Source: Verrucomicrobiia bacterium Tous-C4TDCM (GTDB taxonomy: Bacteria > Verrucomicrobiota > Verrucomicrobiia > Verrucomicrobiales > Akkermansiaceae). Taken from it: a DNA stretch of 34,576 bases. Below, piece by piece: positions 20,256 to 34,352 of the stretch. The position numbers and the translations under genes are program-made. Below the pieces are notes generated by a model. That model was given only the letters and a program-made list of their open reading frames with translations. It was not told the origin of the DNA and did not search any database. Each line of letters starts with the position of its first letter. The first letter of the stretch is position 1. Where the stretch lies: NCBI GenBank assembly GCA_002304315.1, contig NEUO01000023.1:1-34576 (forward strand), given 5' to 3'.

Positions 20256-20371
20256 CGTGCGGCGCCAGCTTTCATGGATCGGCCGGATCTGTCAGGTCCG
20301 CGTTTTCGGGTGGAGTGGACACGAGTGTGGACCTTCGGCCCACGCTCGTGTCGATAGGACGTCTTTGCTCT

Positions 20372-22582
20372 TTAGGTGCCGCTGGTGGCCCGGCTTTCGA
20401 AAGCTTGGAAAAGCCTGAGGCTGCCGTAGCTGACCCGTTCCCCGAGTTTCTCGAAGACCGGCTTGAGCGCGAGGCCTTCGTGGCCTTCGAAGGCGATGCG
20501 CATTTCCGCTTCCTCGTCCGCGCTGTAGAAGGCGCGCGGATCGAGCTTCTCGCCGCCTTCGACCGCCTTGGCGAGGTGGCTTTCGACGGTGCTGGCCGCG
20601 AGGCCGCGTTCCTTGGCGATCTGGTCGATGCTGACGCCGGACTTGTAGCGCTCCAAGGTCGCCAAGGCGGTGCCGTTGAGCTCGTTTTCGGACTTCATCT
20701 TCCGCACGGGCTCCGCGGAGGCGCGGATGGCGGCGAAAGTCTGCTGCGGGTGGGTGTCGATCCACACGGCGATCGTTTCGAGCATCGGCGTGCCGAAGTC
20801 AGCGAGCTTGCGTTCCCCGACGCCGGGGATGTGGAGCATTGCGGCGGGGTCCGATGGATATTCGCGGGCCATGTGCCGCAGCGAGACATCGGAGAAGACG
20901 ACGTAAGACGGCACGTCGCGGGCATCGGCCAGGTTCTTGCGAACGGCGCGGAGAGCGGCGAAGAGCCCTTCATCGCAGGGGATGTCGCCGGCCTTGGCGA
21001 TGGCAGTGGCGCTGTCCCGGGTGGAGGCGGGCGGGCGGACGAGGAGGAAGGGGCGGCCGTCCTTGAGCGCGGTGCGGCCGGCTTCGGTCAGGGCGACGGT
21101 CGAGAAGCCGTCCTGCGACTGGCGGATCAAGTCGAGCCGCAGCAACTGCCTGCCGAGCGCGACCCATTCGGCGCGCGGGGTGTCGCTGCCGATGCCGTAG
21201 GTACTAAGCGTCTCGTGCTTCCAACGGCGGATCTTCTCGGTGTTCGCACCGCAGAGGACATCGGCGACGTGCTGGAGACCGGTGGTGAAGCCGCCGTGCT
21301 GGCGGATGCGGAAGACGCAGCTCAGGAATTTCCGGCAGTCGAGCGTGGCGTCGTAAGTCTCGCGCGGCGACAGACAGGAGTCGCAGCCGCCGCAGTTGTC
21401 GTGAGGCCAGGCCTCGCCGAAGTAGCCGAGCAGGTGGCCGCGGCGGCAGCCTTCGTCCTCGGCGTATTCGGTCATCTGGTCGAGCTGCGATTTGGCGATC
21501 GCGTGGGCCTGCTCGTCGGTGATCTCGTCGAGAAAGCGCAGTTGCTTCATCACGTCGCCGCGCGAATAAAGCAGCAGACAATCGGCCGGCAGCCCGTCGC
21601 GTCCGGCACGGCCGGTTTCCTGGTAGTAGCCTTCGACGTTCTTCGGCAGGTCGGAGTGGATCACCCAGCGGACGTTCGGCTTGTTGATGCCCATGCCGAA
21701 GGCGACCGTCGCGCAGACCACGCGGGCCTCGTCGCGGAGGAAGGCGTCCTGGTTCTTGCTGCGTTCGGCGGCTTCCATCCCGGCGTGGTAGGCCACGGCG
21801 GAAATCCCTTCGGCGCGCAGCACGGCGGCGAGCGCTTCGGTCGATTTCCGCGACTGGCAGTAAACGATCCCGGCGTCCTGCGGCCGGGCGGCGGCGAATT
21901 CCCAGACCTGGCGCTCCGGCTTCGACTTCGGGATGACGCGGTAGCTGAGGTTCGGCCGGTTGAAGCTGGAGATGAAGACCTGCGGCTCCCGCAGGCGGAG
22001 CTGGCCGACGATGTCCTCGCGAACCCGCGGGGTGGCGGTGGCGGTCAGCGCGATGAAGGGGACGCCGGGAAAGCGTTCGCGCAGGGTGGCGAGCTGGCGG
22101 TATTCCGGGCGGAAGTCGTGACCCCATTCGCTGATGCAGTGGGCCTCGTCGACGGCGATCGCGCCGACGTTCCAGCCGGCGAGCTTGCGTGGGAAGTCCC
22201 CGGCGAGCAGGCGTTCCGGGGCGACATAGAGGAGGCGAAAATTGCCGGCATCGAGGTCCGCGTGGCGGGCGGCCATCTCGGCAGGCTCCAGGGTGGAGTT
22301 CAGGAAGGTCGCGGCGACCCCGGCGGCGTGGAGCTGGTCGACCTGGTCTTTCATCAGGGCGATCAGCGGCGAGACGACGACCGTCAGGCCATCGCGGACC
22401 AGGGCGGGGAGCTGGTAGCAGAGGCTCTTGCCGGCGCCGGTCGGGAGGATGGCGACGGTGTCGAGCCCGGCCAGGGTGGCGGCCATGATTTCCTGCTGGA
22501 GCGGGCGGAAGGAATCGTAGCCGAAGATCTGCTTGAGGAGGGCGGGGAGACGGTCGGCGGGGGAGGGGGCGATGGCTTTCAT
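20372..22582 (-). CDS. recQ: ATP-dependent DNA helicase RecQ
   Basis: The 736-residue 3'-5' helicase acts in recombination and fork repair. It has Walker A TGAGKS (48-53), the DEAH box VDEAHCISEWGHDFRPEY (DEAH at 145-148) and a helicase C domain with GRAGRDG. The RQC zinc site has four Cys (GCRRGHLLG...NCGGCDSC), followed by an RQC winged helix and an HRDC-like domain (IPGVGERKLADFG). A C-terminal helix-turn-helix-like tail ends the protein (IDQIAKERGLAASTVESHL...). The ATG at 22582 starts MKAIAPSPAD and is preferred over an ATG at 22666 that would add 28 unsupported residues. It is divergent from the methyltransferase gene. A second copy of its 3' end lies at 17416-17644. Confidence 0.97.
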   Translation of the reverse strand: MKAIAPSPADRLPALLKQIFGYDSFRPLQQEIMAATLAGLDTVAILPTGAGKSLCYQLPALVRDGLTVVVSPLIALMKDQVDQLHAAGVAATFLNSTLEPAEMAARHADLDAGNFRLLYVAPERLLAGDFPRKLAGWNVGAIAVDEAHCISEWGHDFRPEYRQLATLRERFPGVPFIALTATATPRVREDIVGQLRLREPQVFISSFNRPNLSYRVIPKSKPERQVWEFAAARPQDAGIVYCQSRKSTEALAAVLRAEGISAVAYHAGMEAAERSKNQDAFLRDEARVVCATVAFGMGINKPNVRWVIHSDLPKNVEGYYQETGRAGRDGLPADCLLLYSRGDVMKQLRFLDEITDEQAHAIAKSQLDQMTEYAEDEGCRRGHLLGYFGEAWPHDNCGGCDSCLSPRETYDATLDCRKFLSCVFRIRQHGGFTTGLQHVADVLCGANTEKIRRWKHETLSTYGIGSDTPRAEWVALGRQLLRLDLIRQSQDGFSTVALTEAGRTALKDGRPFLLVRPPASTRDSATAIAKAGDIPCDEGLFAALRAVRKNLADARDVPSYVVFSDVSLRHMAREYPSDPAAMLHIPGVGERKLADFGTPMLETIAVWIDTHPQQTFAAIRASAEPVRKMKSENELNGTALATLERYKSGVSIDQIAKERGLAASTVESHLAKAVEGGEKLDPRAFYSADEEAEMRIAFEGHEGLALKPVFEKLGERVSYGSLRLFQAFESRATSGT

Positions 22583-22729
22583 GGGATGTTCAGGCGGGTT
22601 GAGATGAGGAAGGCGGATATCAGAGGCTTTGAATGAGGTCAAATGAACAGTCGTTATTTTTCGCACTTTTTTGTGAGATGCGATGTTTCGCGGTTTCCAC
22701 GGCGGGGCGGGGCAGGTCTAAAGGGAGGG

Positions 22730-24196
22730 GTGAACGATCCCGTTAGACAGCTTTATTCCGAACGTCGCTACCCGGCGCTGAGCCATCCGGTGACGGACAT
22801 TTCCCGTCTTGCGGTGAGCGCGCGGGTGGCCGGGATGCAGCGGCTGGCGATGCCGGTGGCCTGCCGGGTGCTGGAGTTCGGCTGCGCGTCGGGCCACAAT
22901 CTGTTGCCGCTGGCGGCGCGGTATCCGAAGAGCGAGTTCACGGGGATCGACTACTCCGACACCGCGATCCGTGCCGCGCGGCAGGCGGCCTACGCCGCGG
23001 GGCTGGAGAATATCCGCTTTGAAGTGGCCGATCTGGAGCACTGGCGGCCGTCGCATCCCTGCGACTATCTGATCGCCCACGGCGTGCTGTCCTGGGTGCC
23101 GGACGCGGTGAAGGCGCGGCTGATGGACCTCTGCGCGCAGGTGCTTTCCGACTCCGGGGTGGCCTGCATCAGCTACAATACGCTGCCCGGCTGGTCGCTG
23201 CGGCGGGACGTGGTGCCGCTGGTCCGGGCGCTGGCGGGGAATCCGGCAGCCGCGGGGCTGGGCGGCAGCGTGGAGGCGGTGGCGGCGGCTTTGGCGGAGA
23301 TGGCGGGGTCGGGAACGCCCCACGCCTTGAACTTGCGGGCGATTTGCGGCGACATTGCGCGCAAGGGGGCCGCGGTGCTGCCCTTCGATGACTTCGCGCC
23401 GGTCTGCGATCCGCTGTATTTCGCGCAGTTCGCGGACTGGGCGGGGCAGCGGGGTTTGCGCTATTTGGGAGAAGCGCGGCTTCAGGACAATCTGCCGGAA
23501 GGGCTGGATCCTGCCTCTTGGGAAAAGCTCGCGCCGCTGGCGGCGGACCCGGTTTTGTTCCAGCAGACGATCGACCTGCTCTCGGGCCGGACGCATCGGA
23601 ACAGTCTGCTCTGCCGGCAGGAGGCACCTTTGGAAGAAGGCACGACCACGGCGGTGGTGCTGCATTTCGCGGCGGGGCGGGGGGAGGTGGCGTTGCCGGA
23701 GGCTCCCGGCGAGACGGCGGTGGTGAAGGTGTTCCGTCGGGTGATGGCGGAGGCCGGGAGCGATTGCCTGCCGGTGAGCGAGCTGATGGAGCGGACGGCG
23801 GAAAAACTCGGCGCGGGCTGGGAGCCGACCCGGCATTCGCAAGAGCTGGCGGGCTGGATCTTCCAAGCGGCCCGCTTCGGCGGTGTCGAACTCCGCTCGG
23901 AAGCGCTGGTCATCCCTCGGGGCGGACCGGAAAAGCCGCGGATTTCCGCCTTGAACCGGCACTTTTCGGAGAATGGCTACCCGATTGTCGATCCGCGCCA
24001 CATCACCTGCCATTTCCCGGCGGGGCACGAGCAGCTCCTCGCGGCGATGGACGGGACACGCCCGGCGGCGGAGCTGGCAGGATGGGCGGCCAGGGACTTC
24101 CCCGAGCTCGATTTCCCCCGCTGGCTGGCCCATCTCGCCGAAAGAGGCATCCTGGTCTGGGGCAACGAGGCAGCGGAATCGTTCATTTCAGATTGA
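22730..24196 (+). CDS. SAM-dependent methyltransferase with methyltransferase regulatory domain
   Basis: The 488-residue protein has a class I methyltransferase core with motif I VLEFGCASG (47-55), then FTGIDYSDTAI and the family-typical stretch YLIAHGVLSWVPDAVK and ISYNTLPGWSLRRD. This HGV-x-SWVP / YNTLPGW pattern belongs to proteins with a C-terminal regulatory domain, whose members are annotated as protein-lysine or small-molecule methyltransferases; substrate here is unknown. GTG at 22730 is chosen because homology begins there. The AAGGGAGG before it is unusually close, so the exact start is uncertain. Its stop overlaps the palindromic operator at 24181-24198, and it precedes the regulator gene of the glycan cluster. 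Confidence 0.85.
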   Translation: MNDPVRQLYSERRYPALSHPVTDISRLAVSARVAGMQRLAMPVACRVLEFGCASGHNLLPLAARYPKSEFTGIDYSDTAIRAARQAAYAAGLENIRFEVADLEHWRPSHPCDYLIAHGVLSWVPDAVKARLMDLCAQVLSDSGVACISYNTLPGWSLRRDVVPLVRALAGNPAAAGLGGSVEAVAAALAEMAGSGTPHALNLRAICGDIARKGAAVLPFDDFAPVCDPLYFAQFADWAGQRGLRYLGEARLQDNLPEGLDPASWEKLAPLAADPVLFQQTIDLLSGRTHRNSLLCRQEAPLEEGTTTAVVLHFAAGRGEVALPEAPGETAVVKVFRRVMAEAGSDCLPVSELMERTAEKLGAGWEPTRHSQELAGWIFQAARFGGVELRSEALVIPRGGPEKPRISALNRHFSENGYPIVDPRHITCHFPAGHEQLLAAMDGTRPAAELAGWAARDFPELDFPRWLAHLAERGILVWGNEAAESFISD

Positions 24197-24198
24197 AC
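24181..24198. promoter_or_regulatory. Palindromic operator, copy 1 (before the GbsR-type regulator)
   Basis: GTTCA-TTTCAGAT-TGAAC is an inverted repeat with an 8-nt spacer, overlapping the methyltransferase stop and 30 nt before the regulator GTG. The same motif recurs at 25310-25327 with identical flanks (ATTGAACAAAC on the right). The right arm TTGAAC could double as a -35 box. Binding by the GbsR-type protein is inferred from position and the paired copies. Confidence 0.65.
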
Positions 24199-24227
24199 AA
24201 ACCGAACTCGCGAGTTACCTCCCATCC

Positions 24228-24746
24228 GTGCCCCCGGTCCGCGAAGACGAAGAAGAAATCCGCGAATTCCCGTCGCTCGGCCCGGTTGAGGTACAGGTGA
24301 TCCAGGTCTTTGTCGATGGGGTCAAGGTGCTGGGTTTTCCCCGCTCGATTGGAGAAATCTATGGTCTTCTCTTCATCTCCCCGGATCCGCTTTCACTGGA
24401 CGACCTGGTGCAGCGGTTGGGCATCAGCAAAGGCTCCGCCAGTCAGGGTTTGCGTGCTTTGAAAGGGCTGGGCGCGGTGCGTGAGATCCCGGTCGAGAGT
24501 TCGCGCCGGAGCCACTATCAGGCGGATACGGAGTTGAAGCGTCTGGTCGGCGGCTTCATCCGGGAGCAGGTCCGGCCCCACCTAGAAAGCGGCCAGTCGA
24601 AGATCGGGCGCTTGCTCGATACGGCCGGCGACGAGCAGGACCCCGCCCAGCGGGAGTTCGTCCGAGAACGGGTCAAGCAGCTCGAGCGCTGGATTGACAA
24701 GGGGCGCATCGTGCTGCCGATCCTCCAAAAAGTCCTCGGCGAATGA
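24228..24746 (+). CDS. GbsR/MarR-family winged-helix transcriptional regulator
   Basis: The 172-residue protein contains the GbsR-type winged helix at residues about 37-100 (FPRSIGEIYGLLFISPDPLS, recognition helix near ISKGSASQGLRALKGLG). A helical dimerisation tail follows. GbsR relatives repress or activate in response to small ligands. The GTG at 24228 is a reasonable start, as the protein then begins about 20 residues before conserved sequence; no ribosome-binding site is obvious. The gene overlaps the NusG-like gene by 4 nt (ATGA), so the two are translationally coupled. It is preceded by one palindrome and the sugar genes by the other, which suggests autoregulation plus control of the glycan operon. 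The ligand is unknown. Confidence 0.85.
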   Translation: MPPVREDEEEIREFPSLGPVEVQVIQVFVDGVKVLGFPRSIGEIYGLLFISPDPLSLDDLVQRLGISKGSASQGLRALKGLGAVREIPVESSRRSHYQADTELKRLVGGFIREQVRPHLESGQSKIGRLLDTAGDEQDPAQREFVRERVKQLERWIDKGRIVLPILQKVLGE

Positions 24747-25288
24747 ATCCCCCCACTTCCACTCACGAGCCCGCCTGGTATTGCCTGAAAACGCAGACCA
24801 AGCGCGAGGCGATCGCCGCCGCGCACCTGCGGGAGCTCGAGAACGTGGAGGTTTTCTGCCCGATGCTCCGCTACCGCAAGGCCACCCGCCGCGGCAAAGT
24901 CTGGTGGGTCGAGGCGCTCTTTCCCGGCTACGTGTTGGCCCGCTTTTGCCTCGATCGCGACGAACGCGCCGTGATGTACAGCCAGGGAGTTCGCGGCTTG
25001 GTGCGCTTCGGCGAGAAAGTGCCCGCCGTAGCGGATGATTTTGTCGATGTCCTGCGCCAGGAAGTGGCCAAGCAGGGCACGGCCGAGGTGCTGACCGTGG
25101 GACCGCGGATCACGGAAGGCGAAGAAGTGGAACTCGCCCACGGCCCGCTCTGCGGGATCCGCGCCACCGTGGTGGAAGTCCTGCCCGCCCGCGAGCGAGT
25201 GAAAGTACTGCTCGAATTCCTGGGCCGCGATCAGGTCATCGAGGTGGATCTCTTCTCCCTGCTGCTCCCCCGCAAGCCCTTGCCATGA
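24743..25288 (+). CDS. NusG/RfaH-family transcription elongation (antitermination) factor
   Basis: The 181-residue protein has a NusG N-terminal domain (about residues 11-105: WYCLKTQTKREAIAAAHL, FCPMLRYRK, WWVEALFPGYVLARF) and a KOW-containing C-terminal domain (about 124-177: GEEVELAHGPLCGIRATVVE). It is a specialised paralogue like RfaH, LoaP or UpxY rather than housekeeping NusG. These bind RNA polymerase and prevent premature termination in long polysaccharide operons. It is coupled to the GbsR-type regulator by a 4-nt overlap and stands directly upstream of the glycan genes, the classic location for such a factor. A leader of about 195 nt separates it from the first sugar gene and may contain its recruitment site. 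Confidence 0.92.
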   Translation: MNPPTSTHEPAWYCLKTQTKREAIAAAHLRELENVEVFCPMLRYRKATRRGKVWWVEALFPGYVLARFCLDRDERAVMYSQGVRGLVRFGEKVPAVADDFVDVLRQEVAKQGTAEVLTVGPRITEGEEVELAHGPLCGIRATVVEVLPARERVKVLLEFLGRDQVIEVDLFSLLLPRKPLP

Positions 25289-25309
25289 AGTCGATGCGGT
25301 CGTTATTCT

Positions 25310-25327
25310 GTTCATTTTTTATTGAAC
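25310..25327. promoter_or_regulatory. Palindromic operator, copy 2 (before the glycan genes)
   Basis: GTTCA-TTTTTTAT-TGAAC has the same arms and 8-nt spacing as the site at 24181-24198. The flanks agree too, so almost all of some 22 positions match (GTTCATTT left, ATTGAACAAAC right). It lies 22 nt after the NusG-like gene and about 155 nt before the first sugar gene, in an AT-rich pocket that probably contains the operon promoter. Confidence 0.65.
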
Positions 25328-25483
25328 AAACACCTGGATTTTCGATCCATCAATCCGTCGAGGCGCTGCTCCTGATGCCGCCCGGAATTCCATTCTTTTG
25401 TTTCCCGCCGTTGGTTTTGTCCGAAATCCGGACATTCGACCACGGGCGGTAGCGTGCCCGCCTTTCCCCCCACCCAGAACCGC

Positions 25484-26449
25484 ATGAATTCCACCCAGGA
25501 CCTCAAAGGCAAGACCGCAATGGTCACCGGCGGTGCCGGCTTCGTCGGCTCCCACCTGGTCGACCGCTTGCTGGCCGACGGACTCCATGTGATCGCGCTT
25601 GATAATTTCGTCACCGGCCACGCCCGGAACATCGCCCATCTCGACGGAATTCCGGAATTCCGCTTCATCCAGCACGATGTTTCGGAGCCTTTCGACGTCG
25701 AGGGTCCGGTGGATTTCGTGTTTCACTTCGCCTCCCCGGCCAGCCCGATCGACTACGTCCAGATCCCGATCAAAACGCTGAAGGCCGGCTCTTACGCCAC
25801 CCACAATTCGCTCGACCTCGCCCTGCGCAAAAAGGCGACCTTCCTCGTCGCTTCCACTTCCGAAATCTACGGCGATCCGGAAATCCACCCGCAGCCGGAA
25901 AGCTATTGGGGCAACGTCAATTCAATCGGCATCCGCTCCTGCTACGACGAGGCGAAGCGCTACGCCGAGGCCGCCACCATGGCCTACCATCGGGCCCACG
26001 GTGTCGACACCCGGATCGTCCGCATTTTCAACACCTACGGCCCCCGCATGCGGCTCGACGACGGCCGCGTGGTTCCCGCCTTCATCGGCCAGGCCCTGCG
26101 CGGCGAGCCGATGACCATCTTCGGCGACGGCACCCAGACCCGCTCGTTTTGCTACGTGTCGGACCTGGTCGAAGGCATCTGGCGGCTCGCCCGCAGCCAG
26201 TGCCACGAGCCGGTGAACTGCGGCAATCCCCACGAAATGAGCATGCGCCAGTTCGCGGAAGCCATCGCCAGCGTCTTCGGGATCGAACTGAAAGTCGACC
26301 CCAAGCCGCTGCCGCCCGACGACCCGAAAGTCCGCCAGCCCGACATCACCCGCGCCAAGGAAGTCCTTGGCTGGGAGCCGGTCGTGCCCTTCGATCAGGG
26401 CATCCGCCAGACCGTCGAATACTTCCGCGGCCAGCTCCAACCCGCGTGA
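25484..26449 (+). CDS. uxs: UDP-glucuronate decarboxylase (UDP-xylose synthase)
   Basis: This 321-residue extended short-chain dehydrogenase converts UDP-glucuronate to UDP-xylose with bound NAD. It has the Rossmann loop GGAGFVG (16-22), and the catalytic Tyr154/Lys158 in [10 protein letters not shown]. Family signatures [32 protein letters not shown] and the C-terminal [13 protein letters not shown] closely follow eukaryotic and bacterial UXS. The ATG at 25484 was chosen over a GTG at 25454. It is the first sugar gene after the regulatory pair; no UDP-glucose dehydrogenase is present in the window to supply its substrate. The next gene starts 3 nt after its stop. Confidence 0.93.
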
Positions 26450-26452
26450 TTC

Positions 26453-27625
26453 TTGTCGCCTGATTCCAGCGTCGATTTCCTGATCGTGGGCGCCGGCTTT
26501 TCCGGCCTCGTCGCCGCCGAACGGCTGTCGAACGCCGGCTTCCGCTGCGTGGTCGTCGATCAGCGCGAGCACCTTGGCGGAAATGCGCACGACCGCATCG
26601 ATGCCGCCGGCGTCCGCGTCCACGACTACGGCCCGCACTACTTCCGCACGAACTCGCCGCGAATCGTCGAGTATTTGTCGAAGTTCACGGGCTGGCTCGA
26701 TGCCGACTACAAGATCAAGAGCTTCACCGACGACCGCTACTGGAGTTTCCCGGTCAATCTCAACACCTTCGAGGAACTCGTCGGCCACCCCGCCACCACC
26801 GCCGATTTTGAAACCTGGCTTTCAGCGCACCGGATCCCGGCGGAACACCCGCGGAATTCCGAAGAGCTGATGCTCTCAATCGTCGGCCCCGAACTCTACC
26901 GGAAGTTCTACGAAGGCTACACGCTCAAGCAATGGCGCCGCCACCCGCGCGAACTCGACCCCTCCGTCTGTGGCCGCGTTCCCGTCCGCACCAACCGTGA
27001 CGACCGCTACCTCGCCGAAGAGTTCCAGGCGCTCCCGAAAGAAGGTTTCACCGCGATGTTCCAGCGGATGCTCGATGCCTCGCCCGGCGTCGAACTCCAT
27101 CTCGGTGTCGATTTCGAAGAAGCCCGCCGCCGCTGGCACCACCGCCACCTGATCTTCACCGGCCCGGTCGACCAGTATTTCGGCCGCCGCTTCGGCGCGC
27201 TGCCCTACCGCTCGCTGCGCTTCGAGCACGAAAGCTTCACCCGCGAACAGCTCGCCGCCCGCGCCGCCGTATCCGGCAAGCCCGGCTTTTGGCAACCCGC
27301 CGTCCAGGTGAACTACCCGGCCGCCGACGTGCCGCACACCCGCATCCTCGAGTTCAAGCACATCACCGGCCCGCTGCCGGAGGGCAGCACGATCATCCGC
27401 GAGTTCCCGAAAGACTGGACGCCGGACGACGAGCCCTTCTACCCCGTCCCCGCCGCCGACGCGAAGGCCGCCTACCGCCGCTACGCCGAGCTCGCCGCCG
27501 CGGAGGAAAACACCAGCTTCATCGGCCGCCTTGCGACCTACCGCTATTACAACATGGATCAAGTCACCGGCATGGCCCTCGCCGAAGCCGAACGCCTGAT
27601 CTCCCGCTATTCCACCCATGCTTGA
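26453..27625 (+). CDS. glf: UDP-galactopyranose mutase
   Basis: This 390-residue flavoenzyme interconverts UDP-galactopyranose and UDP-galactofuranose, the donor for galactofuranose in surface glycans. The FAD-binding loop is IVGAGFSG (11-18), followed by [20 protein letters not shown] and GGNAHD. Family motifs include [18 protein letters not shown] and the C-terminal [12 protein letters not shown]. Length matches bacterial class I enzymes. A TTG at 26453, three bases after the upstream stop, is the best start since the FAD motif begins about 8 residues later; no ATG is available. The end overlaps the next gene by 8 nt. Confidence 0.93.
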
Positions 27626-28928
27626 ACGCCTGAAATCGAAACAAGGAGCCGTCGGCGTCGTCGGCCTCGGCTACGTCGGCCTGCCCTTGTTGCTCGCCTA
27701 CGCCAAGGCTGGCTTCCGGGCCGTCGGCATCGACATCGATCCCGCCAAGCCCGCCGCCCTGCTCGCCGGCCGCAGCTACATCAAGCACATTCCGAGCGAG
27801 GAAGTCGCCGCCGCCCTCGCTTCCGGGAAACTCGAAGCGACCACCGACTTCGCCATCATTTCCACCCTCGACGCGATCATCCTCTGCGTCCCGACCCCCC
27901 TCGACCAGCACTTCGAGCCGGACCTCAGTTACGTCACCGACACCGTCGATTCCGTCGTCCCCCACCTGAAAGCCGGCCAAGTCCTCAGCCTCGAAAGCAC
28001 CACCTACCCCGGCACCACCGACGAGGAAGTCGTCACCCGCGTCGAGAAAGCCGGCTTCACCGTCGGCACCGACCTCCACGTCGTCTATTCGCCGGAGCGC
28101 GAGGATCCCGGCAATCCGAAGTTCTCCGCGACCAACATTCCGAAGGTCGTCGGCGGCATCACCCCCGCCTGCCTCGCGGCCGGCGTCGTGCTCTATGAAG
28201 CCGCCTTCGAAAAGATCGTCCCGGTCAGCTCCTGCAAGGTCGCCGAACTGACCAAGCTGCTCGAAAACATCTACCGCGCCGTCAACATCGGCCTGGTCAA
28301 CGAGCTCAAGATCGCCGCCGACCGCATGGGCATCGACATCTGGGAAGTCATCCGCGCCGCCTCGACCAAGCCCTTCGGCTTCACCGCCTTTTACCCCGGC
28401 CCCGGCCTCGGCGGCCACTGCATCCCGATCGATCCCTTCTACCTCACCTGGAAGGCCCGCGAATACGGCGTGCACACCCGTTTCATCGAACTCGCCGGCG
28501 AAATCAACCGCGCGATGCCCGACTACGTCATCCATCGTACCATGGAGGCGCTCAACTCCCGCGGCAAGCCGGTCAAAGGCTCGCGGATCCTGCTACTAGG
28601 CCTGGCGTACAAAGCGAACGTCGACGACATGCGCGAGTCGCCGACCTTCGCCCTGCTCGATGGCTTCAAGCGCCTCGGCGCCGAAGTCGCCTATCACGAC
28701 CCGCATGTCCCGGTCGTCGGCCCGACCCGCGAGCACATGGACTGGGCCGGCCACCGCTCGCTCGACTGGACCGCGGAAAACCTCCGCGCCCAGGATTGCA
28801 TCGTCATCTCCACCCACCACGCCGCCTTCGACCTCGACCAGCTCGCCGCCTGCGCCGACCTGATCATCGACACCCGCAACGCCATGGCCGCCACCACCAC
28901 CCGCGACGGCCAGGTGGTCAAGGCGTAG
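27618..28928 (+). CDS. UDP-N-acetylhexosamine 6-dehydrogenase-type nucleotide sugar dehydrogenase (WbpA/VipA-like)
   Basis: The 436-residue NAD-dependent enzyme oxidises the C6 hydroxyl of a UDP-sugar to a carboxylate. It has the Rossmann start [17 protein letters not shown] (about 12-28), the central domain with [20 protein letters not shown], and the catalytic Cys268 in [13 protein letters not shown]. The C-terminal domain starts at [19 protein letters not shown]. The pattern [11 protein letters not shown] and STKPFGF fits UDP-GlcNAc/UDP-ManNAc dehydrogenases better than UDP-glucose dehydrogenase, but substrate is inferred. With the aminotransferase at 29732 it could contribute to a diamino-uronic acid pathway, though the needed oxidoreductase and acetyltransferase are not in the window. 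Confidence 0.9.
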
Positions 28929-29005
28929 GACCGCCGGTCCCCGAAAGCATGTCGTCCCGCGCTCTCCTCCCTTGCTCCCGCGTCCCGATTGGCTAAATTG
29001 CCCGA

Positions 29006-29248
29006 ATGATCGCCCTCGACCGCATCACCTGTGACCCCGGCACCATGAACGGCCAGCCGTGCCTGCGGAATCTCCGCCTTACGGTGCGGCGCGTCGTTGA
29101 AATCGCGGCTCTCTATCCCGACCGTGCCGAGCGCTCGGCCGAGTATCCCGAGCTCGAAGACGAGGATTTCCGGCAGGCTCTCCACTACGCGGCCCTTCAA
29201 CTGCCCGATCGAATCGTAGCTCTCGACCCGGATGCGCTGGTTGCTTGA
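29006..29248 (+). CDS. DUF433 family antitoxin
   Basis: The 80-residue protein matches the DUF433 helix-turn-helix family: RITCDPGTMNGQPCLRNLRL, then an ALYPD segment, then EYPELEDEDFRQALHYAA. Members are antitoxins paired with PIN-like toxins. It overlaps the DUF5615 gene by 17 nt, the usual coupled arrangement, and probably represses its own promoter in the 77-bp gap after the dehydrogenase gene. It belongs to a toxin-antitoxin unit inserted in the glycan cluster, on the same strand as its neighbours. Confidence 0.88.
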   Translation: MIALDRITCDPGTMNGQPCLRNLRLTVRRVVEIAALYPDRAERSAEYPELEDEDFRQALHYAALQLPDRIVALDPDALVA

Positions 29249-29597
29249 TCAAGGGGTTCCCCGCAGCGCTTCCGCCCTACTCAAGGATTGGTCCGAGGAC
29301 GCGATTCACGTCGGCGACATCGGAATGGCCGCAGCCTCCGATCGGGCCATCATCGAACACGCCATCTTAGAGGACCGCATCATTGTCACACTGGACGCCG
29401 ACTTTCATTCGCTGATTGCCACAAGTGGTGCCGCCGGGCCAACGGTGATACGGATCCGGGAGGAAGGCCTCAAAGGGGACGCCGTCGCGGAATTGGTTCT
29501 TCGCATCGCCCGTCGTTTCCCCGTCGATCTCGAAGCTGGTTGTCTGGCCACCTATTCCAACGGAAAAGTCCGGCTCCGCGGATTGCCACTTGGCTAA
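29232..29597 (+). CDS. DUF5615 PIN-like toxin (putative ribonuclease)
   Basis: The 121-residue protein is a DUF5615 PIN-like domain, typically an RNase toxin neutralised by a DUF433 partner. Acidic residues expected in the active site are Asp6 (MRWLLDQGVP, where LLDENLP is common) and Asp55/Asp57 in IIVTLDADFHSL. Gln7 where many relatives have Glu is a mild deviation. It appears intact. The start at 29232 overlaps the antitoxin end, which couples the two. Confidence 0.87.
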   Translation: MRWLLDQGVPRSASALLKDWSEDAIHVGDIGMAAASDRAIIEHAILEDRIIVTLDADFHSLIATSGAAGPTVIRIREEGLKGDAVAELVLRIARRFPVDLEAGCLATYSNGKVRLRGLPLG

Positions 29598-29699
29598 CCC
29601 ATCAACTCCCGTCCGCCAAGCCGACTAACGATCGGCGTCCTCCTTCGCTCAAGATACGGAGGACAGGCCCCCCATCCACCGTCTTCACGCCTTCCCTGG

Positions 29700-29731
29700 C
29701 ACTTGGCACTTCTCACTTGGAACTTCTCCCC
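29700..29731 (+). promoter_or_regulatory. CTT-core heptamer repeat leader before the aminotransferase gene
   Basis: Four tandem 7-mers, CACTTGG, CACTTCT, CACTTGG and AACTTCT, occupy 29700-29727 and are followed by CCCC and the ATG. No Shine-Dalgarno site is present. The final TTCTCCCC-ATG is identical to the bases before the gene at 33270. Function is unknown. Confidence 0.5.
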
Positions 29732-30916
29732 ATGCCCGTCCCACTCCTCGACGTCAACGCCCAGAACCTCCCGCTCGAAGCCGAGCTGAAGGCCGTCTTC
29801 GACAGCGTCCTCCGCTCCGGCCGCTTCATCCTCGGCGAGGAGGTGGAGGCCTTCGAACGCGAATGCGCCGCCGCCCTAGGCGCGAAGCACGCGATCTCGA
29901 TTTCCTCCGGCACCGACGCCCTGATCGTCGCGCTGATGGCCCTCGACATCGGCCCCGGCGACGAGGTACTGTGCCCCTCCTTCACCTTCTTCGCCACCGC
30001 CGGCAGCATCGCCCGCACCGGCGCGATCCCCGTCTTCTGCGACGTCTGCCCGGTCTGCTTCGGCCTCGATATCGACTCGGCGAAAGCCAAGTTCACCCCG
30101 CGCACCAAGGCCATCGTGCCGGTCCACCTTTACGGCCAGTCCGCCGACATGGGCTCGGTCATGGCCTTCGCGAAGGAACACGGGCTGAAAGTCGTCGAGG
30201 ACGTCGCCCAGTCCTTCGGCGCCACCTACAAGGGCCGCGGCTGCGGGACTATCGGCGAGCTCGGCTGCTTCAGCTTCTTCCCCTCGAAAAACCTCGGCGG
30301 CTTCGGCGACGGCGGACTCGTCACCACGGAGGACGCTGCCCTCGCGGAAAAAGTCCTGCGCCTCCGCAACCACGGCATGCATCCGCGCTACTATCACTCG
30401 ATGGTCGGCGGGAATTTCCGCATGGACGCCCTCCAGTGCGCCCTGCTCCGCGTCAAGCTCCGCCACATCAAGGACTACGAAGCCGGCCGCGCGCGCAACG
30501 CCAACTACTACCTTTCCCGTATTTCCGAACTCCCGGGAGTCGTCCAGGCCCTCGAGGCCGACTGCTGCTGCCCCGCCGGCCAAGCCGCGCGCCTCAAGGA
30601 CGCGAAACTCGTCCTGCCCGTCGCCTACCGCCACAACGGCCACGTCTGGAACCAGTTCTCCCTCCGTGTCCCCTGCGCAGGCCGGCGCGACGCCTTGAAA
30701 ACCCATCTCACCGCCCTCGGCATCGGCTGTGAGATCTACTACCCGGTCCCGATGCACCGCCAGGAATGCTTCGCGAAACTGCCGGCGCATTCGCTGTCCG
30801 ATTGCCCGGTGTCCGACCTGCTTTCTTCAGAAGTCCTCAGCATTCCGGTCTTCGCCGAGTTGCGGCAGGACCAGCTCGACGAGGTGCTCGGAGCGCTTGG
30901 TTCATTTTCATCCTAA
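29732..30916 (+). CDS. DegT/DnrJ/EryC1-family sugar aminotransferase
   Basis: This 394-residue PLP-dependent enzyme transfers an amino group to a keto-sugar nucleotide. It shows the family motifs SSGTDAL (58-64), [21 protein letters not shown] (Asp157 holding the PLP ring nitrogen) and the PLP-lysine Lys186 in [14 protein letters not shown]. Relatives include WbpE and ArnB; which keto-sugar is used cannot be read from the sequence. The C-terminal part has an odd Cys cluster (ADCCCPAGQ). The ATG at 29732 gives [11 protein letters not shown], the normal family start. It is followed 4 nt later by the GDP-fucose synthase gene. Confidence 0.93.
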
Positions 30917-30920
30917 TCCC

Positions 30921-31859
30921 ATGAACAAAATCTTCATCACCGGCCATCGCGGCATGGTCGGCTCCGCTCTTGTCCGCGAAGCCGCCCGCCTCGGCGGCCA
31001 CGACGTTCTCAGCGCCGGCCGCGACCGGCTCGATCTGCTCGACCAGCGCGCGGTCTTCGATTTCCTCGCCGCGGAAAGGCCCGGCATCGTGATTATCGCC
31101 GCGGCCAAGGTCGGCGGCATCCACGCCAACGCGACCTACCCGGCGGACTTCATCTACGAGAACCTTAGTATTGCCGCGAACCTCGTCGAAGGCAGCCGCC
31201 GCGCCGGGGTGCCGCGGGTGCTTTTCCTCGGTTCATCCTGCATCTACCCGAAGATGGCTACCCAGCCGATGACCGAGGACTGCCTGCTCACCAGCCCGCT
31301 GGAAACGACCAACGAAGCCTACGCCATCGCCAAGATCGCGGGCCTCAAGCTGTGCCAGCACTACCGCGCCCAGCACGGCCTGATGTATCACTCGGCGATG
31401 CCGACGAATCTTTACGGCCCCGGCGACAACTACCACCCGGAGAATTCCCACGTCATTCCCGCGCTCCTTCGCCGCTTCCACGAAGCGAAAGTCGCCAACG
31501 CGCCGAGCGTGACCATCTGGGGCACCGGCACCCCTCGCCGCGAGTTCCTCCACGTCGACGACCTTGCCGCCGCCTGCTTCCACCTGCTCGGCCTCGACAC
31601 GCCGCCCGACTGGGTGAACGTCGGGGTGGGGGAGGACGTCACCATCCTCGAACTCGCCACCCTGGTCGCCGAAACCGTCGGATTCACCGGCGAGATCCTC
31701 ACCGATCCCACCAAGCCCGACGGCACCCCGCGCAAGCTGATGGATGTCTCGAAAATCAACGCCACCGGCTGGTCGGCCGCCATTCCTTTCCGCGATGGCC
31801 TGGCCGGTGCTTACGGAGACTTCCTCGCCAGCCTCAAAGCCGGCGAAGCAAGGCTCTAA
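30921..31859 (+). CDS. fcl: GDP-L-fucose synthase
   Basis: The 312-residue epimerase/reductase makes GDP-L-fucose from GDP-4-keto-6-deoxymannose with NADPH. It has the Rossmann loop GHRGMVG (8-14), the catalytic Ser105 and Cys107 in LGSSCIYP, and Tyr134/Lys138 in EAYAIAK. These match the Ser107/Cys109/Tyr136/Lys140 set of the E. coli enzyme with a constant offset of two. Downstream NLYGPGDNY and [14 protein letters not shown] are also conserved. It starts 4 nt after the aminotransferase and is followed by gmd, which makes its substrate. Confidence 0.96.
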
Positions 31860-31884
31860 CAGCCGTCTCAAGGTCCGAAGCTTG

Positions 31885-31955
31885 AATGTCTAAAAGTCGA
31901 GGGAAAGCCCAAGCTCCCTCACTTCAGACTTTCAGACTTTCAGACTTTCGACATT
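31885..31955. repeat. Nested inverted repeats and CAGACTTT tandem repeat in the gmd leader
   Basis: The outer arms are AATGTCTAAAAGTC (31885-31898) and GACTTTCGACATT (31943-31955), complementary apart from one gap and one mismatch. The inner arms are GAGGGA (31899-31904) and TCCCTC (31915-31920) around a 10-nt loop. Within this lie three exact tandem copies of CAGACTTT (31925-31948) and a degenerate fourth. The RNA could form a stem-loop in the 131-nt leader of gmd. Confidence 0.5.
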
Positions 31956-31990
31956 TAAACATTAAGACTCTTCTTCCTTCTCTTCCCAAA

Positions 31991-33106
31991 ATGAAAAAAG
32001 CTCTTATCACCGGCATCACCGGCCAAGACGGTTCCTATCTCGCCGAGTTTCTCCTCGAGAAAGGCTACGAAGTCCACGGCATCAAGCGCCGCGCCTCGCT
32101 CTTCAACACCCAGCGCGTCGACCACATCTACGAGGACCCGCACGTCGAAAACTCGCGCTTCCGCCTCCACTACGGCGACCTCACCGACAGCTCGAACCTC
32201 ACCCGCATCCTCAGCGAGGTGCGGCCGGATGAAGTCTACAACCTCGGCGCGCAGTCGCACGTCGCGGTTTCCTTCGAAGCGCCGGAATACACCGCGGACG
32301 TCGATGCCGTCGGCACCCTGCGTTTGTTAGAGGCGATCCGTTTCCTCGGGATGGAAAAGACCACCCGCTTCTATCAGGCATCCACCTCCGAACTCTACGG
32401 CCTGGTGCAGGAGATCCCGCAGAAGGAAACGACGCCCTTCCACCCCCGCTCGCCCTACGCCGTGGCAAAGATGTATGCCTACTGGATCACGGTGAATTAC
32501 CGCGAAGCCTACGGCATGTATGCCTGCAACGGCATCCTCTTCAACCACGAGTCCCCGCGCCGCGGCGAGACCTTCGTCACCCGCAAGATCACCCGCGGCA
32601 TCGCGAACATCGCCCAGGGCCTGGAGAAGTGCCTGTTCCTCGGGAACATCGACTCGCTGCGCGACTGGGGCCACGCCAAGGATTACGTCCGCATGCAGTG
32701 GATGATGCTCCAACAGGAAACCGCGGACGACTTCGTGATCGCCACCGGCAAGCAGATTTCGGTCCGCGAGTTCGTCCGGATGTCCGCCCGTGAAGCCGGC
32801 ATCGAGCTTGAGTTCAGCGGCGAAGGCGTGGAGGAGATCGCTACGGTGAAATCGGCGGATCCTTTAAAAGCTCCGGGCGTCAATGCCGGCGACGTCATCG
32901 TCCGCGTCGATCCCCGCTACTTCCGCCCCGCCGAAGTGGAGACGCTTCTCGGCGACCCGACCAAGGCGAAGGAGAAGCTCGGCTGGGTACCGGAAATCAC
33001 GGTCGAGCAGATGTGCGCCGAGATGGTCGCCTCCGACCTCGATACCGCCAAGCAGCACGCGCTGCTGAAGGCCCACGGCCACCACGTTTCGGTGTCGAAG
33101 GAATAA
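31991..33106 (+). CDS. gmd: GDP-mannose 4,6-dehydratase
   Basis: The 371-residue short-chain dehydrogenase-type enzyme converts GDP-mannose to GDP-4-keto-6-deoxymannose, the first step of GDP-fucose synthesis. Motifs are the cofactor loop [20 protein letters not shown], the active-site STSELYG (131-137) and Tyr156/Lys160 in [25 protein letters not shown] and [10 protein letters not shown] are family hallmarks. The ATG at 31991 gives [11 protein letters not shown]. Unlike its neighbours it is preceded by a 131-nt leader with repeats. Immediately after its stop, in the same frame, lies a YoeB toxin fragment. Confidence 0.97.
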
Positions 33107-33109
33107 ACG

Positions 33110-33256
33110 GATCCCTTCGATGGCATCGGGAAACCCGAGCCGCTTCGCCACCTCGGCTCCGGCATCTGGTCCCGCCGCATCACCCAGGAGCATCGGCTGG
33201 TCTATCGGGTGAAGGACGACCGCATCCTGTTCGCCCAAGCGCGCTATCATTACTGA
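33110..33256 (+). pseudogene. C-terminal remnant of a YoeB/Txe-type toxin gene
   Basis: Reading from 33110 gives [20 protein letters not shown] then [20 protein letters not shown] and ends ARYHY-stop. This is the C-terminal half of YoeB (consensus [13 protein letters not shown]...WSRRI..EHRLVY.V......CRYHY). About 48 of the usual 84 residues remain. The N-terminal half and any YefM antitoxin are missing, and there is no start codon. The catalytic Glu of the missing half is absent, while the C-terminal EHRLVY and His-Tyr end remain. The fragment follows the gmd stop by three bases in the same frame. Confidence 0.87.
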
Positions 33257-33261
33257 GCGTG

Positions 33262-33269
33262 TTCTCCCC
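33262..33269 (+). promoter_or_regulatory. TTCTCCCC start-proximal pyrimidine box
   Basis: The eight bases before the ATG at 33270 are TTCTCCCC, identical to those before the aminotransferase ATG at 29732. No purine-rich Shine-Dalgarno sequence is present. Confidence 0.35.
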
Positions 33270-34352
33270 ATGAAGAAAGTCTTCGTCAGCGGCTGCTACG
33301 ACATCCTCCACGCCGGTCACCTCCAGTTCTTCGAGGAGGCCCGCGCCCATGGCGACTACCTGATCGTGTCGTTTGCCTCCGCCGAGGTGCTCTGGCACCA
33401 CAAGCGCCGCAAGCCTTCGATCCCGGACGATCACAAGCGGGTGTTGCTCGAGGGCCTTCGGATGGTCGATGAAGTGATCGTCACCCAGGGCCACGATGAA
33501 GGACTCGATTTCAAAGAGGACTTCCTGCGCATCCGGCCGGCCATGCTGCTGGTCACGGAAGACGACAAGTACGGCGCGCTGAAACGCGAGCTCTGCGCGC
33601 AGGTTGGGGCCGAATACCGGATCCTGCCGAAAACCCCGCCGAAGTTCGCGCCCGTCTCCACCTCGTCGATCGTCCGCTGGGTCCAGGCCCCGACCGAAGC
33701 CCCGCTGCGCGTCGATTTCGCCGGCGGCTGGCTCGATGTCCCGCGCTTTGCCCGCGACGGCGAGTTCGTCGTGAACTGCGCCATTTCACCGCTCGTCTCG
33801 CTCCGCGACTGGCCCTACGAAAAGCAGGCCGGCCTCGGTGGCAGCGGCGCGTGGGCCTTGCTCAACGGCAAGGATGGCATCGACTCCGAACTCGATCTCG
33901 GCGTCGGCTGGCAGGACCCCGCGGTGATCCGCGAGACCGGCCTCTGCGTCTGGCGCTCGGGTCAGCGGCCGGCGCTCGACTTCAAGCACAACGGCGATTT
34001 CCTCAAGGGCCGCATGGCGATTTACTGGACCGGCACCCCCCACGACACGCCCGGCGCCGCCGATCTTCCCCGCGACTACGACCGCATTGCGGAGTCCGGC
34101 CGGATCGCCCGCCAAGGGGTGCTGGAGTCCTCTCTCGAAGTGCTCTCCCGCGGGGTGGATCTTTACCACGCCACCCAGCTCGACGAAGGCATGGACCCGC
34201 TCCCGGATCTCCCCGGTGCCCTCGCCCGGAAGTACTGCGGCGGCGGTCACGGGGGTTACGCGCTTTATCTCTTCTCCCGCGAAGCCGCCCGTGCTTCCGC
34301 TCTCGCCACGACCGCTTCTCTCCGTCCCATCGAACTCTTCTGCCGGGTTTGA
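33270..34352 (+). CDS. Bifunctional nucleotidyltransferase / GHMP-kinase-like protein
   Basis: The 360-residue protein is a fusion. Residues 1 to about 137 are a cytidylyltransferase-type nucleotidyltransferase: VFVSGCYDILHAGHLQFFEE with the HxGH motif at 14-17, then LLVTEDDKYGALKRE and the STSSIV signature, as in HldE-C/TagD relatives. Residues about 144-358 resemble a GHMP sugar kinase of the heptose-kinase HddA or fucokinase type: APLRVDFAGGWLDVP (144-158), the phosphate loop GLGGSGAW (188-195) and a C-terminal Gly-rich motif CGGGHGGYALYLF (323-335). The kinase half is short (about 215 residues, versus 300 or more). It may activate a sugar by phosphorylation then nucleotidylation, for example fucose or heptose; the substrate is inferred from gmd/fcl context only. 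Confidence 0.82.
   Translation: MKKVFVSGCYDILHAGHLQFFEEARAHGDYLIVSFASAEVLWHHKRRKPSIPDDHKRVLLEGLRMVDEVIVTQGHDEGLDFKEDFLRIRPAMLLVTEDDKYGALKRELCAQVGAEYRILPKTPPKFAPVSTSSIVRWVQAPTEAPLRVDFAGGWLDVPRFARDGEFVVNCAISPLVSLRDWPYEKQAGLGGSGAWALLNGKDGIDSELDLGVGWQDPAVIRETGLCVWRSGQRPALDFKHNGDFLKGRMAIYWTGTPHDTPGAADLPRDYDRIAESGRIARQGVLESSLEVLSRGVDLYHATQLDEGMDPLPDLPGALARKYCGGGHGGYALYLFSREAARASALATTASLRPIELFCRV

Follow-up and report, generated by a model that had tools for sequence, protein, structure and literature searches.

A candidate two-checkpoint control module pairing a GbsR-type regulator with a distant NusG paralogue and an ops-like leader at surface-glycan operons of Verrucomicrobiota

Introduction

In the part of one account cited here (PMC7593976), RfaH of Escherichia coli stands alone among specialised NusG paralogues in that its recruitment is understood in detail; LoaP has been added since. 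The RfaH side chains that touch the ops element are K10, H20, R23 and R73, and RfaH recognises T6 of ops (PMC5995543). The JUMPstart element is listed for gamma-Proteobacteria only (PMC2864571). RfaH targets often lack a Shine-Dalgarno sequence, and cis-encoded beta-RfaH proteins without the ops contacts act independently of ops (both from a preprint, PMC13015549).

Here, we analyzed a 34,576-nucleotide stretch of DNA from Verrucomicrobiia bacterium Tous-C4TDCM (the whole stretch is called the window below), in which genes for a GbsR-type regulator and a NusG paralogue stand ahead of a glycan operon. The GbsR protein of Bacillus subtilis is a repressor. A search of the open-licence literature returned no relevant paper on Verrucomicrobia with RfaH/ops, nor on GbsR with NusG.

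Results

Genes at the locus

The features of the locus are collected in Table 1. The gbsR product matched Pfam MarR_2 in a profile search of the window proteins and scored 44.9 bits against the NCBIfam CudC equivalog, under its cut-off of 218. Its closest solved structure, both by sequence profile (E=1e-22) and by fold, was PDB 1ku9 (MJ223), which places it among the GbsR-type MarR regulators with the winged-helix fold of MJ223 and GbsR. The recognition-helix region, ISKGSASQGL, is near-invariant across relatives, which is what conservation of the operator would lead one to expect. The gbsR stop codon overlaps the start codon of the NusG paralogue in an ATGA at 24743-24746, making translational coupling of the two genes probable.

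Table 1. Features of the glycan locus, with positions in the window
Feature	Position	Strand	Basis or remark
Upstream methyltransferase gene	22643-24196		Stop codon overlapped by operator palindrome 1
Putative operator palindrome 1, GTTCATTTCAGATTGAAC	24181..24198	+	Upstream of gbsR in 71/79 named loci
Putative -35 box TTGAAC, the right arm of palindrome 1	24193..24198	+	Predicted
Probable -10 box TTACCT of the gbsR-nusG promoter	24215..24220	+	Predicted by comparison with relatives
gbsR, GbsR/MarR-type winged-helix regulator	24228..24746	+	GTG start likely
NusG paralogue, RfaH-like	24743..25288	+	Profile, PDB and AF2 evidence
Putative operator palindrome 2, GTTCATTTTTTATTGAAC	25310..25327	+	Conserved among named loci
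Putative -35 box TTGAAC, the right arm of palindrome 2	25322..25327	+	Predicted
Leader RNA hairpin UGGUUUUGUCCG-AAAUC-CGGACAUUCGACCA	25412..25442	+	Covariation; stem closes immediately 5' of ops
ops-like element GGCGGTAGCGTG	25445..25456	+	12/12 match to E. coli ops
NAD-dependent epimerase/dehydratase (SDR), glycan operon gene 1	25484..26449	+	Pfam Epimerase, GDP_Man_Dehyd
Rest of the glycan operon	26453..34352	+	Profile searches (Pfam, NCBIfam)

The paralogue belongs to the NusG superfamily, with an NGN domain and a KOW-type C-terminal domain (CTD): it matched Pfam NusG at 3e-13, and its fold matches those of NusG and RfaH. Among solved structures, its best match by sequence profile was RfaH (PDB, 6e-13). 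Assignment to the described specialised families was nevertheless rejected, as all three cut-offs were missed: it scored 82.5 bits against RfaH (TIGR01955, cut-off 144.5), 51.9 against UpxY (NF033644, cut-off 100) and 50.9 against LoaP (NF033641, cut-off 125). At the positions through which RfaH touches ops, K10, R23 and R73 are replaced by Q, E and Q, while H20 is kept in most sequences. AF2 predicts a beta-barrel CTD (pLDDT 88) in place of the metamorphic alpha-helical CTD, which gives no indication of autoinhibition by an alpha hairpin. An ordinary housekeeping NusG is encoded elsewhere in the genome (contig C104, 192.8 bits), as is a partial match to Rho (contig C128).

Beyond its first gene, the glycan operon includes genes for a UDP-galactopyranose mutase, a UDP-sugar dehydrogenase, a DegT aminotransferase, a GDP-fucose synthase, a GDP-mannose dehydratase and a cytidylyltransferase. 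No Shine-Dalgarno-like sequence was seen at 25457-25483, ahead of the first sugar gene; genes that lack one may also be common in Verrucomicrobiota. Further upstream, an open reading frame of 773 amino acids (20315-22636) gave no match in the Pfam search.

Two palindromes that accompany gbsR

The palindrome GTTCA-N8-TGAAC stands at the two positions of Table 1, just where the first-pass annotation had placed it, the first copy lying about 30 bp ahead of the likely gbsR GTG start at 24228. The window holds these two copies and no others, against an average of 0.02 in shuffled sequences. The draft genome that we searched (4.28 Mb, 72% complete) holds four in all. The third, at C10:14535, is followed by an ops-like leader at a distance of 110 bp; the fourth lies on contig C156 and has an unrelated centre.

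We examined 80 named loci of the NusG paralogue from Haloferula, Luteolibacter, Roseibacillus and other Akkermansiaceae and Verrucomicrobiales. In all but one of them (79/80), gbsR lies upstream of the paralogue, and each of these 79 carries the palindrome on one side of the gene pair or on both: the exact form is found upstream of gbsR in 71 and downstream of the paralogue in 42. One locus (L154) has its second site displaced; otherwise, these loci hold no further copies. For the first-pass annotation, a palindrome scattered at random or not conserved beside related gene pairs would have refuted the proposal; given four sites in the genome and 79 of 79 loci, neither is the case. Together with the counts in the window, these figures led us to reject a chance match or a scattered repeat. 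The same annotation had also pointed to a match between the two copies beyond the arms, in an inner TTT, an inner AT and a trailing AAAC. The match is there in the window, but the exact TTT/AT interior is not conserved at site 1, where relatives share the arms (core TTCA-N8-TGAA) and an AT-rich centre but nothing more; at site 2, TTCATTTT-N-ATTGAA is kept more strictly than the interior of site 1.

The association extends beyond the family. There, 14 of the 21 loci that have gbsR carry the exact palindrome, against none of the 19 that lack it (p=5.5e-6, a significance that is overstated since these statistics treat genomes as independent), and several of the remaining gbsR loci (L198-L200, L208) carry a TTCA-N8-TGAA variant in the same place. 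The pattern is seen in several families of the phylum (L201-L207). In Roseibacillus and related loci (L155, L158-L160, L162, L163, L171, L175, L180), two palindromes 20 bp apart, one often a near-copy, stand before the glycan operon just downstream of the paralogue, an arrangement that suggests cooperative binding.

Aligning relatives on the palindrome revealed a -10-like hexamer (TA..T) 16-17 bp past the right-arm TTGAAC, as in TTGAAC-N16-TATAAT in L149 and TTGAAC-N16-TACAAT in L131. The gbsR start codon follows about 6-10 nt beyond the -10-like box (24215-24230; L118-L163), a gap so short that the gbsR mRNA probably has little or no leader. In the window itself, the -10 boxes match the consensus poorly. 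Since the right arm of the palindrome coincides with the putative -35 box, occlusion by GbsR is likely; from this overlap, the one feature from which the direction of control is read, the promoter geometry is likely to be that of a repressor operator. The autoregulated operator that had been proposed from the two copies thus gains comparative support from its presence at 79 of 79 loci, its covariation with GbsR and the identity of its right arm with the -35 box, and an autoregulatory GbsR operator pair is a strongly supported reading of the comparative evidence.

A hairpin-ops leader

The first-pass annotation had overlooked a leader element in the stretch from palindrome 2 to the first sugar gene: an ops-like sequence about 110-130 bp past the palindrome, with a hairpin closing just before it. 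The GGCGGTAGCGTG at 25445-25456 is the sole exact copy in the draft genome. Relatives carry GACCA-NN-GGCGGYAGCKTR at the leader, and across 57 genomes the ops-like pattern gave about 70 true matches against one for a reversed-pattern control. At position 6, most of these elements have C; with most of the RfaH contacts missing from the paralogue, recognition cannot be exactly that of RfaH. Two module leaders (L016 2184 and L029 2136) have GGCGGACGC[TA]TG in place of GGCGGYAGCKTG, a natural variant of the core.

The predicted hairpin consists of a UGGUU..GACCA closing stem and an inner stem of variable sequence. Among 22 leaders, 91% of pair cells were paired and 7 of the 12 pairs had changed on both sides; none of 500 shuffles reached the observed values, and slid versions were less than 50% paired. 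A second set of leaders (n=15, mostly deep) had double changes at 9 of 12 pairs. When mixed leaders were aligned by MAFFT alone (A2), the longer stems came out misaligned, and the pair counts were therefore taken from A1 and A7. It is these covariation counts that carry the argument for the hairpin, and not the single-sequence folding z-scores, which were modestly lower there (mean -0.74). The stem sequence and the loop vary freely among leaders, and GGCGGYAGCKTG is almost invariant. We considered and rejected an intrinsic terminator: no T-run follows the hairpin, and the invariant ops follows instead. In one deep lineage (L204-L207), the interval between paralogue and leader holds an extra inverted repeat, GGATATCCAATG..TTGGATATTC, shortly before the hairpin.

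In the window as in its relatives, ops thus lies in the leader of a polysaccharide operon, as in RfaH/ops systems, and the window also has the JUMPstart feature of a hairpin ending in CCA just 5' of the element. Against the Rfam JUMPstart model (RF01707, gathering score 35), the window scored 14.2 bits and 0 of 38 relatives passed; the E. coli rfb leader, run as a control, scored 60 bits. Our own leader covariance model (R1) gave the window 69.6 bits, the window leader being part of its training set.

Linkage of leader and paralogue

One orthologue of the NusG paralogue was found in 51 of 57 relatives, including all genomes of the same genus, and in the six closer relatives without it we found no ops-like motif. 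We extended the comparison to 289 genomes drawn from the phylum, 63 of which have the paralogue. The covariance model matched in 30 of the 289, a lower bound since the search filters were strict. The leader was present in 29 of the 63 paralogue-positive genomes but in only 1 of the 226 paralogue-negative ones (Fisher p=3e-21), and often follows the paralogue gene at a distance of about 60-200 bp, in other classes too. A strict ops regular expression matched directly downstream in only 44 of the 79 named loci; some named loci start the target operon elsewhere. A genus of the same family (g3; about 20 small genomes, G019 and G076 among them) has neither paralogue nor leader, which suggests loss of the system.

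The two signals also keep a common spacing: 34 of 68 ops-like sites have an exact palindrome 108-196 bp upstream, where about 0.007 would be expected. On contig C10, the leader precedes a gene resembling a VTT-family protein that is found in the same place in relatives, and after it come genes for glycosyltransferases, a hexapeptide transferase and a methyltransferase, and one with a weak match to Wzx. The first genes after leaders outside the module are mostly polysaccharide genes, and leaders without a palindrome precede sugar transferases, epimerases, ABC-2 exporters, a pyruvyl transferase, RmlA-type nucleotidyltransferases and others. A minority of leaders precede unrelated genes (e.g., L088 and L046) and may be chance matches.

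Discussion

The module, its two signals and their spacing, the covariation and the linkage can be read directly from the sequences compared. What they compose is, quite probably and as judged by comparison of genomes, a cis-encoded control module with two checkpoints for surface-glycan operons. GbsR would bind GTTCA-N8-TGAAC and repress the gbsR-nusG promoter and the glycan-operon promoter alike, until a ligand, perhaps a glycan precursor or an osmolyte, relieves repression. Glycan transcripts would then carry the hairpin and the ops-like pause in their leader; the co-produced RfaH-like paralogue would load on RNA polymerase paused there and keep it transcribing along the whole of the long operon, probably by countering Rho-dependent polarity. 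Where operator and leader recur together, as on C10, or the leader recurs alone, as in relatives, further polysaccharide operons would join the regulon. For both the postulated control of initiation by GbsR at its operator and the postulated loading of the paralogue at the leader, the comparative support is strong. The idea that one signal sets both initiation and elongation, already put forward in the first-pass annotation, finds independent support in the co-occurrence of the ops/JUMPstart-like leader with the paralogue across the phylum.

The role given to GbsR in this module could be wrong in its sign or in its bearer. With the module otherwise unchanged, GbsR might be an activator, or might switch sign with its ligand, and not be a simple repressor. 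The weak -10 boxes of the window are of the kind seen in activator-dependent promoters; still, the right arm of the operator is itself a near-consensus -35 box (TTGAAC), which favours steric repression, and the repressor role known for B. subtilis GbsR points the same way, so that we hold an activator to be unlikely. That the palindrome belongs to some unrelated transcription factor we consider very improbable: throughout the phylum it goes with gbsR in both presence and position, and nusG paralogues that have no gbsR beside them have no palindrome either.

As for elongation, the hairpin-ops leader might serve the housekeeping NusG, NusA or the ribosome, its linkage to the paralogue merely reflecting a shared glycan context. 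The ops-like sequences do match the consensus pause, and the residues with which RfaH contacts bases are not conserved in the paralogue. Yet across the 289 genomes the leader depends on the paralogue and is frequently met right after the paralogue gene, and relatives that lack the paralogue have no copy of it, which makes such a general role quite improbable. A variant of the loading step is harder to dismiss, possible though rather doubtful, in which the paralogue is recruited through the RNA hairpin, much as LoaP binds a leader hairpin with the help of a pause, the ops-like sequence contributing no more than the pause. The strong covariation of the hairpin agrees with this, and a LoaP-like or monomorphic factor is in keeping with the predicted beta CTD and the absence of ops contacts. 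Against it, stem and loop are free to vary around an almost invariant GGCGGYAGCKTG, pointing to ops as the sequence that is read, and no constraint to a UNCG tetraloop is seen in the leaders. The invariance of ops beside a variable stem favours readout of DNA, much as RfaH reads the non-template strand, the hairpin lending structural help to the pause.

Taken together, we lean towards an ancient RfaH-like antitermination system with a JUMPstart-type leader throughout Verrucomicrobiota, hard-wired to a GbsR repressor that shares the operator of the target operon. If this is true, the ops/JUMPstart signal either predates enteric RfaH by far or arose on two occasions, and ops can be read by a factor without the known RfaH contacts or fold switch. 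A phylum-wide leader with a distant paralogue makes the choice between an ops recognition older than RfaH and a convergent one directly testable, as it does the targeting of a factor that has neither the fold switch nor the known contact residues. It also offers a predicted surface-polysaccharide regulon for a little-studied phylum, and a case of one operator-regulator pair coupling initiation to elongation control.

Set beside known systems, this is RfaH/ops-type control in a new form, with a distant paralogue, a GbsR partner and a leader of its own. With E. coli RfaH-ops/JUMPstart (RF01707), it has in common a NusG paralogue, the 12-nt GGCGGTAGCGTG and its place in polysaccharide-operon leaders. 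A hairpin ending in CCA stands at the same distance 5' of ops in both (CTGG..CCAGG-ops in E. coli, TGGTT..GACCACG-ops in the window), and the E. coli rfb leader, CTGG..CCAGGGGCGGTAGCGTG, has the order and spacing of the window leader. Unlike E. coli RfaH, the Verrucomicrobiota paralogue is encoded in cis beside a gbsR gene, lacks most of the ops-contact residues and has a predicted beta CTD; its element mostly has C at position 6, and the covarying stem is longer, 12 bp against about 4. UpxY of Bacteroides is likewise a NusG paralogue adjoining the polysaccharide operon that it presumably serves, but neither an ops-type leader nor a GbsR partner is described for it in the portion of the literature covered. 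LoaP (Bacillus, dfn leader) resembles the Verrucomicrobiota system in combining a NusG paralogue with a leader RNA hairpin and a pause, and differs in its antibiotic operons, its UNCG hairpin and its lack of an ops sequence. The regulator is a winged-helix protein of GbsR type, as are those of the GbsR/CudC/MJ223 family, but it is linked to glycan genes and a NusG paralogue where they are linked to choline/betaine genes. The monomorphic beta-RfaH proteins (PMC13015549) are likewise cis-encoded, with a beta CTD and without key ops-contact residues; those tested act without ops, whereas here an ops-like leader is conserved phylum-wide. A cis-encoded beta-type factor tied to an ops-like leader is the unexpected part of this system.
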